Shown here: one piece after another, positions 6,446-42,400 of the stretch
Layout of the letters: every line of letters begins with the position of its first letter
How positions within the stretch are numbered: the stretch's first letter is position 1
Source of the DNA: Enchytraeus crypticus
Taxonomy: Eukaryota; Annelida; Clitellata; Enchytraeida; Enchytraeidae
Direction of reading: 5' to 3'
Length of the DNA: 64,000 bases
NCBI GenBank assembly: GCA_905160935.1
Contig: CAJHZI010000593.1
Coordinates: forward strand, 110,686 to 174,685
Made by a program: the position numbers and the translations under genes
The notes under the pieces: generated by a model
Told to the model about the DNA's origin: nothing
The model's database searches: none
Seen by the model: only the letters and a program-made list of their open reading frames with translations

Positions 6446-9400
6446 ATGGCTGATGAAGCAGAATACGCTGCCGATTCTCAGACTGTCGTTCTTATTCCTG
6501 ATTCTTCCACACCTGGCAGCGAAACAAAGTCGTCTACTATAAGACCCCGCATTTCTCTCCACTACGGACTGCATCAGTGCGAGTTTGAAGATAAATATGG
6601 GAGAGATGTTGGAAATGGGAGAAAGAACGAGTCTTTTTGGCAGAGTGCCAAGAGTAGGGCAAGGAAACAGTGTAGAGGAGATTCTCTGCTGAGTATACTG
6701 CACAGCAAACTGCCGGTCATCAGAGTTATTAGTAAGTAATGTGGATTGTGTTCTCTTTTCTTATATTTTTTATTTTTCTATTCTTTTCTACTCTGGGCTT
6801 AAATTTAAATATTCATTTGTTAATTGCTTCGAAGTTTATTCCTGTTTCAGCGCCATCTGGCGATGTCGGTAAGATATTCGACCGCGGATCAGTGTGTGCA
6901 GGGTTCAAATCCTGGGCTCACCCGTCACTGACATCACTTGTGAGGAAACTGACTTTAACATTAGCTTTTTAACTTTTTCTTGACTTCGCTATGTAATTTT
7001 CTACTAACTACTGTTTTTGCTGTTATTCTGGGACTCGCAATCAACTTAATAATTGCTCATTAATTAATGTTGTGCTGATTTATTAATATTTCCGACTAGT
7101 TAAATGTCATTAATTGACATCCCTGACATCATCCTTGGATGTGGAAATGGTCATTAAACCTTTCTTATTATTATTATTATTATGAATGAGTAATTGATAT
7201 GGTGTGGGGCAGAGAAAGAGAGAGAACTATGTTTTATTTCGATACACTCAAAATATACAGTCCAGACAGAGAGGACTGGAGAAAGTCTATTCGTATACCG
7301 ATCCTGGTTAAACTGGGATTTAAGGGAAGATGATGATGATGATAAATGAGTAATTGATTGACTGATGAATCACTTGATTGTTTGATTGACTGTTCACCAG
7401 GTGGCTACAGATGGAAGAAGGATTTTCTGGGAGACATGCTGGCAGGCATTAGTGTAGGGGTAATGACTATACCTCAAAGCTTTGGCTACGCTATGCTTGC
7501 GTCTGTACCAGCAGTACTGGGTCTTTATACCTCCCTATTCCCTGTTGTAATCTACTTCATGTTTACCACCTCACGCCATGTTTCTATTGGTACAATGGCT
7601 CTCTCTTGTCTTGTCATTGCTGCTGCTGTACAGCGTGGGATTGGTCATTCTTCGGCTGTCAATCAAGTTAAATTAGCTAATGGCAACCTTTCAGATGGGA
7701 GTTATAAGAGTGAATTGAGAGAAGGAGGAGCCAATGCTATGAACAGCCAGATTGATTCACTTCGGCTTGACTATATTATAGAAGATTATCAGGGATTGGA
7801 TGTTACCAGTGAGAGCACAAATGTCAGGAGTGATGGGAGTGGTGGAAGAGAAGAAGGTGGGTGGAGTCAGTTGGAAGAGGAGCAGATACTCATAGCAGTC
7901 AGCGTGTCGTGTCTGGCCGGTGTTATAATGATTGTAATGAGCGTCTGTCATCTCGGCTTCATCGTCTCCTACATGTCCGAGGCTTTCGTCAGCGGCTACC
8001 TCGCTTCCTCTAACCTACGTGTACTCACGCTACAGGTATGTCTAGGTCTTCCTCTAACCTACGTGTTCTCGCACTGCAGGTATGTCTAGGTCTTCCTCTA
8101 ACCTACGTGTACTCGCGCTACAGGTATGTCTAGGTCTTCCTCTAACCTACGTGTACTCACACTGCAGGTATGTCTAGGTCTTCCTCTAACCTACGTGTGC
8201 TCACGCTACAGGTATGTCTAGGTCTTCCTCTCTACGTGTGCTCACACTACAGGTATTTGTCAATGTATGTTTAGATCAGTGTGGTGTATGTGTATATATT
8301 TGTCAATGTATGTTTAGATCAGTGTGGTGTATGTGTATATATGTGTCAATGTATGTGCAAATCACTGGTGTATGTGTCTAAGTATGTTTAGATCAGTGTG
8401 GTGTATGTGTATATATGTTTCAATGTATGTTCAGATCAGCGTGGTGTATGTGTCTAAGTGTGTTTAGATCAGTGTCGTGTATGTGTATATATGTGTCAAT
8501 GTATGTTCAGATCAGCGTGGTGTATGTGTCTAAGTATGTTTAGATCAGTGTGGTGTATGTGTTTATATGTGTCAATGTATGTTTAGATCAGTGTATGTGT
8601 ATGTGTAGGTTGCTATTATACTAGGCATCAAGCCAGCACCACGTAATCTCGCTGTTGGGGAATACTTTATGCTTGTCTACGACATGCTCTGTAACCTGCC
8701 CAACACTAACCTTGTTCAGCTGATGATCTCCGTCATAAGCATCATTACACTGGTGGTAGTGAAACAGTGCGTGAATGAGAGATATAAGCATAGACTTAAG
8801 GTCTGTATCTACGTGTGTGTCATAAGCATCATTACACTGGTGGTAGTGAAACAGTGCGTTAATGAGATATAAACATAGACTTAAGTTGTGATATTCTATG
8901 TGTAGATACCTATAGACGTGATATTCTATGTGTAGGTGCCTATAGATGTGCTATTCTATGTGTAGGCACCTATAGATGTGCTATTTTATGTGTAGCACCT
9001 ATAGATGTGCTATTCTAGGTGTAGGTACCTATAGATATGCTATTCTATGTGTAGGTGCCTATAGACGTGCTATATTTTATGTGTAAGCACCTATAGATGT
9101 GCTATTCTATGTGTAGATGCCTATAGATGTGATATTTTATGTGTAGCTGCCTATAGTTATGCTATTCTATGTGTTGGCACCTATAGACATGCTATTCTAT
9201 GTGTAGGCACCTATAGACATGCTATATTCTATGCCTAGGTACCAGTGCCTATAGACGTGCTGGTAATGATCGTGGCCACTCTCGTCTCTCACCTCCTCTC
9301 TCTCCACTCATCCTATGGGGTGAGGGTCCTCACCCACCTCCCCAGTGGTCTCCCCTCCCCCGTCACTCCCTCTCTCTCCCTCATGACCTCACACGTGTTT

Positions 9401-39475: not shown

Positions 39476-42400
39476 ATGTCTACCCAGCGACTTTTTCCCA
39501 GCGTAACGTTAAGCTCATTCTGCTTCCTTGTTCTTGCTCTGAATGGAACAGACAACAAGAGTAGGGTAAAAAGGGGTAGGGCTCGAGATCTTAAAGACTT
39601 ATTAGTCATGTATTTGCAAGTCTAAATTAATTCAATTCAGTTAATTATTTAATTAAATCAGTAAATTACATAATGTAATTAATTTAGTTTAATTAAAATC
39701 TAATTAATTTAATTAAGTTAATTAGATTACTAAAGACTCTCAATTCTATGAGAGTCGGTCTATTTCTACATCTCGTTTAGATATAGTAAGATCTTTAATA
39801 GAAGTTCTAGAAGAAAGAGGAGGAGGAAATTTGCGCGAGTATAAGCTCTCGTGGAATACAACAATATAAACCATCACAAGAAGGTTTTAATAGATTACAA
39901 AATACCAGCACGTAAGCAACCGAGTGCTGGCCTAATAGAGCTTTTCGGTAATAGCTCTACATGTAAATAGAACATCGTGGACACCAAATGTAAACAGTGG
40001 ACAAGAAAACGTAAACACTGCATAGAATACCATTGAAATGTACTAGTTCATCATAAAATTTCTAATACAAGCTTTCTTTAGAAATGTTATTTACTTTACA
40101 ACCTACTATACGGATATTAATTAAAAAATAACTTAACACTTATAGTTTAACTCTTTCACCCATTATAACGGTAAGCATGCATTATAACGAAGTTATAATA
40201 TAGACCCATTACATTTACATGTAAATATATATATCAGATGTCAACATAAACAAACCAGTGTTACCATACAACAAAATATGTTTTTAATTGCCGAACTGAT
40301 CTATTGTTTTATATGTAATGTTCTAACCAATATATAAAACATGTCTGAACTGTCTATAGATGATTAATTGATTTATATAGATGATTGATTGAAATGTCTA
40401 GACGATTAATATGTCTAGACGATTGATATGTCTAGACGATTGATATGTCTAGACGATTGATATGTCTAGACGATTGATTGATATGTCTAGATGATTGATA
40501 TGATATGCCTAGATGATTAATTGATATGTCTAGATGATTGATTGATATGTCTACATGATTGATTGATTTATCTAGATGATTAATTGATATGTCTAGATGA
40601 TTGATTGATATGTCTAGACGATTGATTGATATGTCTACATGATTGATTGATTTATCTAGATGATTGATTGATATGTCTAGATGATTGATTGATATGTCTA
40701 GACGATTGATTGATATGTCTAGATGATTGATTGATTTATCTAGATGATTGATTGATATGTCTAGATGATTGATTGATATGTCTAGATGATTGACATAATA
40801 TACCTAGATGATTAATTTATTGATTGATATGTCTAGACGATTGATTGATATGTCTAGATGATTGCTATGATCTATCTAGATTTATCTCTCTAGATGATTG
40901 ATTGATATATATGATTGATTGATTGATCTAGATGATTTATTGATCTAGATGATAGATTATTGATGCAGCCTCAGTGGCCCCGGCAGAGAGAGGTCAGATC
41001 TACACGCTACCAGTACGCCTGAGATCCTGTCAGATGATTGATTGATCTCTCTAGATGATTGATTGATCTAGATGATTGATTGATCTAGCTGATTGATCTC
41101 TCTAGCTGATTGATTATTGCTGCAGCCTCAGTGACCCCGGCAGAGAGAGGTCAGATCTACACGCTACCAGTACGCTTGAGATCCTGTCAGATGATTGATC
41201 TCGAGGTGCTCTATGATGAGATCAACAGCAAGCTGTGTGGAGGGGGGAAAACCTGCGATGGGTTTACCACTTCCATGTCCCCCTGCATCGACGAGAAATC
41301 AGCTGTCTCCAGTATCTTCTCCATGGCCAACAAATACATCAAATCTGACTTCCTCGTGAGTTTCGATAGTCATTAGATCAATGACAAAAATCGTATGTTT
41401 AGTTAATGTGATGATGACGACCGCGGATCAGTTGATGCGGGTTCAAATCTTGGGCTCGCCCGTCACTGATATCGCTTTCGAGTGAGGATATTGACGTTAA
41501 CCTTAGCTTTACTTTTAGCTTTTTTTAAAATTTGGTCTATAGAAGTTATTAAATTAAATTAAGTTAATGATTAGGTTTCTGTTTAGTGTTAGGGTTAGGG
41601 TTAGGGTTAAGGCTAATTTGAATGAAATTAGAGCTATATTTGTGGAATTAGGGTTAGATTATATATGACGTATAGAAAATGAACAAAACGATTTTTGTCA
41701 TTAATCTAATGACTACCGTGAGTTCCAACATGCAATAGTGTCTTGTTCTTGTTATTAGAGTGCGTCAGGAACCTGCCGTTAGGCTTTACATTGAGATAGA
41801 CAAAGAGAGAGACTGAGAGTAGGAGAGATAGAGATAGCGCGAGGGATAAATGGAGACTGTGGGAGTCAGAGAGAGAGAGAGAGAGAGAGAGAGAGAGAGA
41901 GAGAGAGAGAGAGAGAGAGAGAGAGTGAAGAGAAACAGAACTTATTAATAATTACATGTATAACTGTAACTGTAACTCTTTATATTAGAAATATATTTGA
42001 ACATGTAGAACTACAACAACTGTAAGGAACGATAAATATAACTACTGTGTAAAGTTTAACAATTTATTCGTGTAGAATAGCAAGGACTGAATGGGAACGC
42101 TAACGATAACTAAAATGTTTTATATGATGGGCATGTAGAAAAGCAAGAACTGAATGGGAACGCTAACTCTAACTAAAATGTTTTATATTATGTGCGTATA
42201 GAACAGCAGGGACTGGAAGGGAACGCTAACGATAACTATAACTCACAGAACTAGAACGAGTTCTCTGATGAACAAGAACTGCACACAAGAATGCGTAACA
42301 GCTCTAAAACAACTCTCTGCTGATGCAGTGGTCAGTCAATCAATCAATCATTCATTCAATCAATCAATCTCAAGTATAATTTTTGCATTAACATATTTAA

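Follow-up and report, generated by a model that had tools for sequence, protein, structure and literature searches.

Tandem arrays across exon–intron borders in a 64,000-nt genomic window: probable mirage-type minisatellites

In the 64,000-nt stretch of contig CAJHZI010000593.1 analysed here (hereafter the window), the edges of exons are copied into the adjoining introns, one of them being present in 34 copies: of the 51 splice borders inferred in four gene models (an SLC26 gene, a FAM13-like RhoGAP gene, gene C and gene D), 12 recur on their own intron side. Judged from their sequences, these border arrays appear to be of the kind already described in amphioxus under the name of mirages. The duplicated borders are no more numerous than the local density of repeats predicts, and arrays that lie inside exons obey a rule of phase. 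The explanation that we favour, with a probability of about three in four, is that the border arrays are mirage-type minisatellites, produced by a duplication process that acts everywhere and from which selection keeps the outcomes that are neutral for the message.

According to this explanation, short tandem duplications would arise throughout this region of the genome, and would then expand and contract as minisatellites. Within exons, selection would retain units whose length is divisible by three; across a border, the duplications kept would be those in which the outermost copy is still spliced, the remainder becoming intron. We infer both the neutrality of the border copies and the mutational process that generated them, which may be slippage or unequal exchange.

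Gene models and arrays at their splice borders

Splice consensus, phase and the openness of the frame guided the construction of the four gene models, which together contain 25 introns (Table 1). The SLC26 model has a spliced frame without internal stops and carries the Pfam domains Sulfate_transp and STAS, and in an alignment with prestin from the PDB its four joins are gap-free. A custom spliced protein-to-genome aligner was run on SLC26 with four relatives (P0001, P0002, the oyster protein P0012 and the salmonid protein P0018); it recovered the four introns identically with each of them, and also yielded spurious introns within loops of exons 2 and 5 that are not conserved. Among the 120 relatives listed of 337, the eleven best matches do not exceed 48% identity, and the highest-scoring relative with a species name is from oyster (34%). 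The spliced frame of FAM13 is open, its sole stop being the final one. A relative, P0121, aligns in register over the joins between exons 1 and 2 and between exons 14 and 15, and its support at exon 4 reaches to five residues from the exon end, while several of the middle joins have no usable alignment to it. A search for relatives of gene C found none; its spliced frame is open, and its two array-bearing borders are therefore placed by phase alone. The two borders of gene D are unduplicated (edit distances 9 and 12). On this evidence the inferred borders appear to hold up, the relatives backing all of the SLC26 joins and some of the FAM13 joins.

In the border test, the 30-nt word spanning each border (15 exonic and 15 intronic nt) was compared with the text on its own intron side over at most 500 bp, and a border was scored as duplicated at an edit distance of 8 or less. 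The ten borders that an initial annotation of this DNA had named as sources of local arrays were all recovered, at edit distances of 1 to 7, and two further borders, the FAM13 exon 4 acceptor and the gene C exon 3 donor, were found at edit distance 8. Distant intron text matched border words within an edit distance of 8 with a frequency of 0.001 (n = 859), which places the recurrence at borders far above chance. At the FAM13 exon 4 acceptor, what look by eye like older, decayed upstream copies lie at positions 29990–30100 on the minus strand.

The ten arrays, at six donors and four acceptors, have units of 20–157 bp present in 2 to 34 copies. Their similarity extends into the exon by 5, 13, 17, 18, 32, 40, 45, 54 and 74 nt at the nine borders where this was measured, while the border span of the SLC26 exon 3 donor duplication is known from the 30-nt word only. 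The arrays had been said to begin exactly at the coding border, which these figures contradict. The related proposal that each unit joins the edge of the exon to the splice site does not hold for every copy: the second copy at the SLC26 exon 3 donor reads AAG/TTG, and two of the 34 in-register copies at the FAM13 exon 14 donor lack the GT (a looser scan gave 31 of 34 with GT, one core being out of register). The array at the SLC26 exon 5 acceptor has a TTGA microsatellite on its intron side.

Table 1. Gene models and tandem arrays in the window. Edit distances are those of the 30-nt border-word test; TRF, Tandem Repeats Finder.
Feature	Positions	Strand	Edit distance	Description
SLC26 gene	6446..11852	+		5 exons (6446-6731, 7401-8035, 8609-8800, 9239-9558, 10227-11852); 1,019 aa
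SLC26 exon 2 donor array	8004..8256	+	1	44-bp unit x5.8; 32 nt exonic; 6 in-register copies, GT in all
SLC26 exon 3 donor duplication	8735..8885	+	6	about 85-bp unit, 2 copies; copy 2 without GT; extent by eye
SLC26 exon 4 acceptor array	8887..9243	+	7	30-bp unit x11.8; 5 nt exonic
SLC26 exon 4 donor array	9505..9730	+	2	79-bp unit x2.9; 54 nt exonic
SLC26 exon 5 acceptor array	10092..10244	+	1	46-bp unit, three border copies; 18 nt exonic; TRF end 10202
FAM13-like RhoGAP gene	15620..34139	-		15 exons; 1,571 aa; RhoGAP 3e-35; mite FAM13A among matches
FAM13 exon 1 donor array	33402..33845	-	2	34-bp unit x13.1; 13 copies with GT; 13 nt exonic
FAM13 exon 4 donor duplications	29309..29723	-	4	3 copies, spacing 131-153 bp; 45 nt exonic; TRF covers 29309-29619
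FAM13 exon 14 donor array	15929..16603	-	1	20-bp unit x33.8; 34 in-register copies, 32 with GT; 17 nt exonic
Gene C	41126..47684	+		7 exons found; 595 aa; Ephrin_rec_like domain; start not found
Gene C first-found-exon acceptor duplication	40879..41199	+	3	157-bp unit x2; 74 nt exonic
Gene C second exon acceptor array	42071..42241	+	7	63-bp unit x2.7; about 40 nt exonic
Gene D	1..3631	-		2 exons: 3631-3297; 2812 onward, open at the low end of the window
Gene D in-exon array	21..798	-		30-bp unit x25.9, in frame in coding exon; unit divisible by three

Borders, introns and the density of repeats

The initial annotation had held that the border arrays go beyond general repeat richness, a view that the counts do not sustain. 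Its comparison of 30-bp border words with words from intron interiors, run within the window, gave the opposite of an enrichment: recurrence was found for 41% of words in intron interiors (n = 1,500) and for 17% in exon interiors (n = 608), against 12 of 51 borders. After removal of low-complexity words the rates were 0.33 for introns, 0.16 for exons and 0.13 for intergenic DNA. When the annotation was slid along the window, 12.4 duplicated borders were expected from rotation alone, and 12 were observed; points drawn at random within the same introns gave an expectation of 19.5 (14.9 with complex words only), compared with 11 of 50 observed. Recurrence follows a gradient across the border: it is 0.47 on the intron side at a distance of 16–25 nt, 0.23 at the border itself and 0.06 on the exon side at 41–60 nt.

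A further null counted each array once and placed its founder at random. Using the extents given by TRF alone, 6 of 33 arrays straddle a border, with 4.4 expected (p = 0.23). With two arrays that TRF had clipped reassigned (those at the SLC26 exon 5 acceptor and the FAM13 exon 4 donor), the count becomes 8 against 4.4 (p = 0.03), and with the SLC26 exon 3 donor array also added by hand it is 9 of 34 against 5.6 (p = 0.04). It should be noted that intron interiors received no equivalent hand search, and the excess at the level of arrays is therefore biased towards borders. An enrichment of arrays at borders was accordingly rejected: the word recurrence and the rotation and same-intron nulls show none, while the array-level excess is weak and hangs on reassigned or hand-added arrays.

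Inside exons, 11 of 12 array units have a length divisible by three. The proportion is lower elsewhere: 7/27 for intron arrays, 4/9 for intergenic ones and 3/8 for those at borders (the last count including one array over the gene C stop codon, which is not a splice border). The difference between exon arrays and all others (11/12 against 14/44) is significant (Fisher p = 2.6e-4). Duplication evidently affects exons as well, with frame-shifting cases almost entirely missing. This also fits the earlier suggestion that the message need not be altered by a duplication through a border, which is for that reason tolerated. At the nine borders considered, splicing at an inner copy would lead to a frameshift or a stop for 60 of the 64 such copies, in agreement with the proposal that the outermost copy is the one that keeps phase. 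The splice site in use at these borders is probably the outermost copy, and is presumably used accurately.

The contribution of the border arrays to the length of introns is limited. Of the 21,405 intron bases, minisatellites account for 6,990, and border arrays for 2,472 (12%). Across the introns, length shows no correlation with repeat rate (rho = -0.08), while it correlates with the number of repeat bases (0.58) and more strongly with that of non-repeat bases (0.80). The idea that copying of borders is a main route of intron expansion therefore finds no support in these figures. Nor do array-rich introns appear enlarged where a comparison could be made, which was for SLC26 only: introns 2–4 are also present in the nearest paralogue, on contig C331, and measure 573, 438 and 668 bp in the window but 1,373, 2,392 and 1,431 bp in the paralogue, where their repeat rates are 0.03, 0.15 and 0.24.

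Paralogues and competing explanations

Wider searches covered the assembly of 524,188,772 bases in 802 contigs to which the window belongs (contig C500, positions 110686–174685). Among four SLC26 paralogues, of which that on C331 is the nearest (49–63% identity over four matched pieces), 2 of 26 borders are duplicated, both in the C331 gene; one border was counted for each ambiguous set, which leaves 26 of 31 candidate positions. The recurrence rates of their introns are 0.14, 0.02, 0.03 and 0.02, and in the three paralogues other than C331 (0.02–0.03) no border array was found. With so few borders, the most that can be said is that recurrence is low at borders and in introns alike. At the exon 5 acceptor of the C331 gene there are, by eye, about three copies of a unit much longer than that of the window gene, with visible decay; the length of the unit and the decay suggest that this acceptor was duplicated independently in the two genes.

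Two loci, on contigs C335 and C458, matched the SLC26 exon 2 array at the DNA level and were considered as further SLC26 genes, but a translated SLC26 search found none there. Both hold genes that Pfam assigns to the rhomboid family, each with a donor array of its own. The alignment of a single unit between the SLC26 exon 2 array and these loci is poor, though it was possibly made in the wrong orientation, and the likeness of the arrays is best treated as the result of selecting matches from a 524-Mb genome and not as a sign of common descent. In the two rhomboid paralogues, 5 of 11 and 4 of 11 borders are duplicated (9/22 in all, or 7/20 without the border that led to them), and recurrence in the flanking introns averages about 0.5. 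Unsettled borders, such as the exon e donor, were excluded, and the exon e acceptor of the second copy (edit distance 11) was scored as a miss despite its duplicated exon half. Within the window, as in the two rhomboid genes, border recurrence lies below that of the adjoining introns. Duplicated borders are thus few where introns are poor in arrays, as in the SLC26 paralogues, and many where introns are rich in them, as in the rhomboid pair. Another gene on C335 shows, by eye, a 47-bp array (x7.5) over its apparent acceptor (locus L004, 677–1033); its Pfam match to a nucleoside transporter is weak and below the cutoff.

It appears quite unlikely that splice borders are preferred sources of arrays and that the copying of these borders is the chief cause of intron growth. 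All ten of the named borders were confirmed, there is a soft excess at the level of arrays (p = 0.03–0.04 with reassigned arrays), the SLC26 exon 5 acceptor is duplicated with different units in two paralogues, and the exon b donor and the exon e and g acceptors are copied in both rhomboid paralogues. However, the comparison of borders with intron interiors failed to favour borders, the border arrays make up 12% of intron bases, the array-rich introns of SLC26 have longer counterparts in the nearest paralogue, and three of the five SLC26 genes examined have no border array. On present evidence, a neutral account makes the claim of preferred borders unnecessary. It is highly improbable that the inner copies serve as alternative splice sites and that the arrays act as a switch for proteins of variable length: while the inner donors at +60, +120 and +180 nt of FAM13 exon 14, each step adding 20 residues, and that at +153 of exon 4 would keep the frame open, 60 of the 64 inner copies considered would disrupt the message, as described above.

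The neutral explanation has difficulties of its own. The array-level counts leave room for a modest excess at borders, and the SLC26 paralogues have two duplicated borders where about 1.3 are predicted from the intron rates. Introns in the window exceed intergenic DNA in recurrence (0.33 against 0.13, or 2.6-fold, over positions 1–52803) to a degree that was reached by no rotation, and a uniform process does not predict such an excess; moreover, recurrence is 0.47 in acceptor-proximal intron against 0.33 in the middle of introns (p = 0.037), with no excess on the donor side. These two observations would be expected if the birth of arrays is favoured in transcribed introns, especially near acceptors, with (TTGA)n tracts, which by eye adjoin several acceptors, as possible seeds of slippage and border copying as a by-product. 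This is possible, if unlikely: the data come from one window, the donor side shows nothing comparable, and the introns of three SLC26 paralogues are nearly free of arrays (0.02–0.03), so that any intron effect must be specific to genes or regions. Six stretches of the assembly, picked regardless of repeats, gave recurrences of 0.06–0.17, compared with 0.13 for intergenic DNA of the window; the density of arrays is therefore patchy by gene. A more speculative and rather unlikely extension couples the birth of arrays to germline transcription or to features of acceptors, the same borders being duplicated again independently in paralogues. If this were true, the introns of certain genes would be rich in arrays while intergenic DNA and other genes would not, and border arrays could be read as an indicator of where the mutator acts.

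Relation to known systems and other features of the window

Mirages of amphioxus were reportedly described by Canestro et al. in 2002 (NAR 30:2871), and Gao and Lynch are said to have shown in 2009 that a tandem duplication carrying splice signals makes a new intron. The arrays described here are minisatellite-like duplications of both donor and acceptor boundaries, with AG or GT kept in many copies and the gene presumably read from the outermost one. According to two reports (PMC3087553, PMC3902484), tandem repeats over exon–intron boundaries with these same properties, and with units ranging, as here, from tens of bp to about 160 bp, were named mirages in amphioxus Adh3 and later recognised in globins, TnC and PGBD5, the splicing of these genes being described as normal or taken to be so; the Branchiostoma globin study (PMC3087553) proposes that mirages may yield new introns. 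A difference from the amphioxus cases is that duplication here touches 12 of 51 borders, with 34 copies of one donor, and that the host is probably not amphioxus: no Branchiostoma name occurs among the 120 SLC26 relatives listed of 337, where the best identity is 48%. No report using the name mirage outside the cephalochordates was found in titles and abstract openings of the open-licence literature.

Two other cases share part of the phenomenon. In a potato RNA-dependent RNA polymerase gene (PMC4974935), a tandem duplication likewise takes splice signals through a border, but there a new intron was made, whereas here existing introns appear to absorb the copies. In human duplicated genes (PMC2812944), tandem repeats at boundaries also alter the genomic structure of genes; there they can give rise to alternative or novel introns in paralogues, whereas here the message is presumably unchanged. 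The presence of dense border-straddling minisatellites in a genome that is probably not that of an amphioxus suggests that the phenomenon may be more widespread than is apparent from the reports cited above. It also offers a natural experiment on how the spliceosome chooses among up to 34 near-identical donors, and warns gene finders that the edges of exons may be copied many times.

Beyond these arrays, the window contains a perfect, spacerless palindrome at positions 41607–64000, whose arms measure 11,197 nt each; it ends exactly at the end of the contig (length 174,685) and is most likely an assembly fold-back there; the second copy of gene C is therefore probably not real. Approximately three TTAGGG units are seen by eye at 41589–41611, where the arm of the palindrome starts. 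Rfam and tRNA scans gave no matches. Finally, a dispersed element resembling a short interspersed element, whose core GGTAAGATAYTCGACCGCGGAT was not matched exactly by any of the viral and prokaryote contigs searched, occurs at 6868, 12309, 30850, 35593, 36023, 44658 and other positions; with up to 3 mismatches allowed, the core is matched 13 times across the window, including four times in the second arm of the palindrome.

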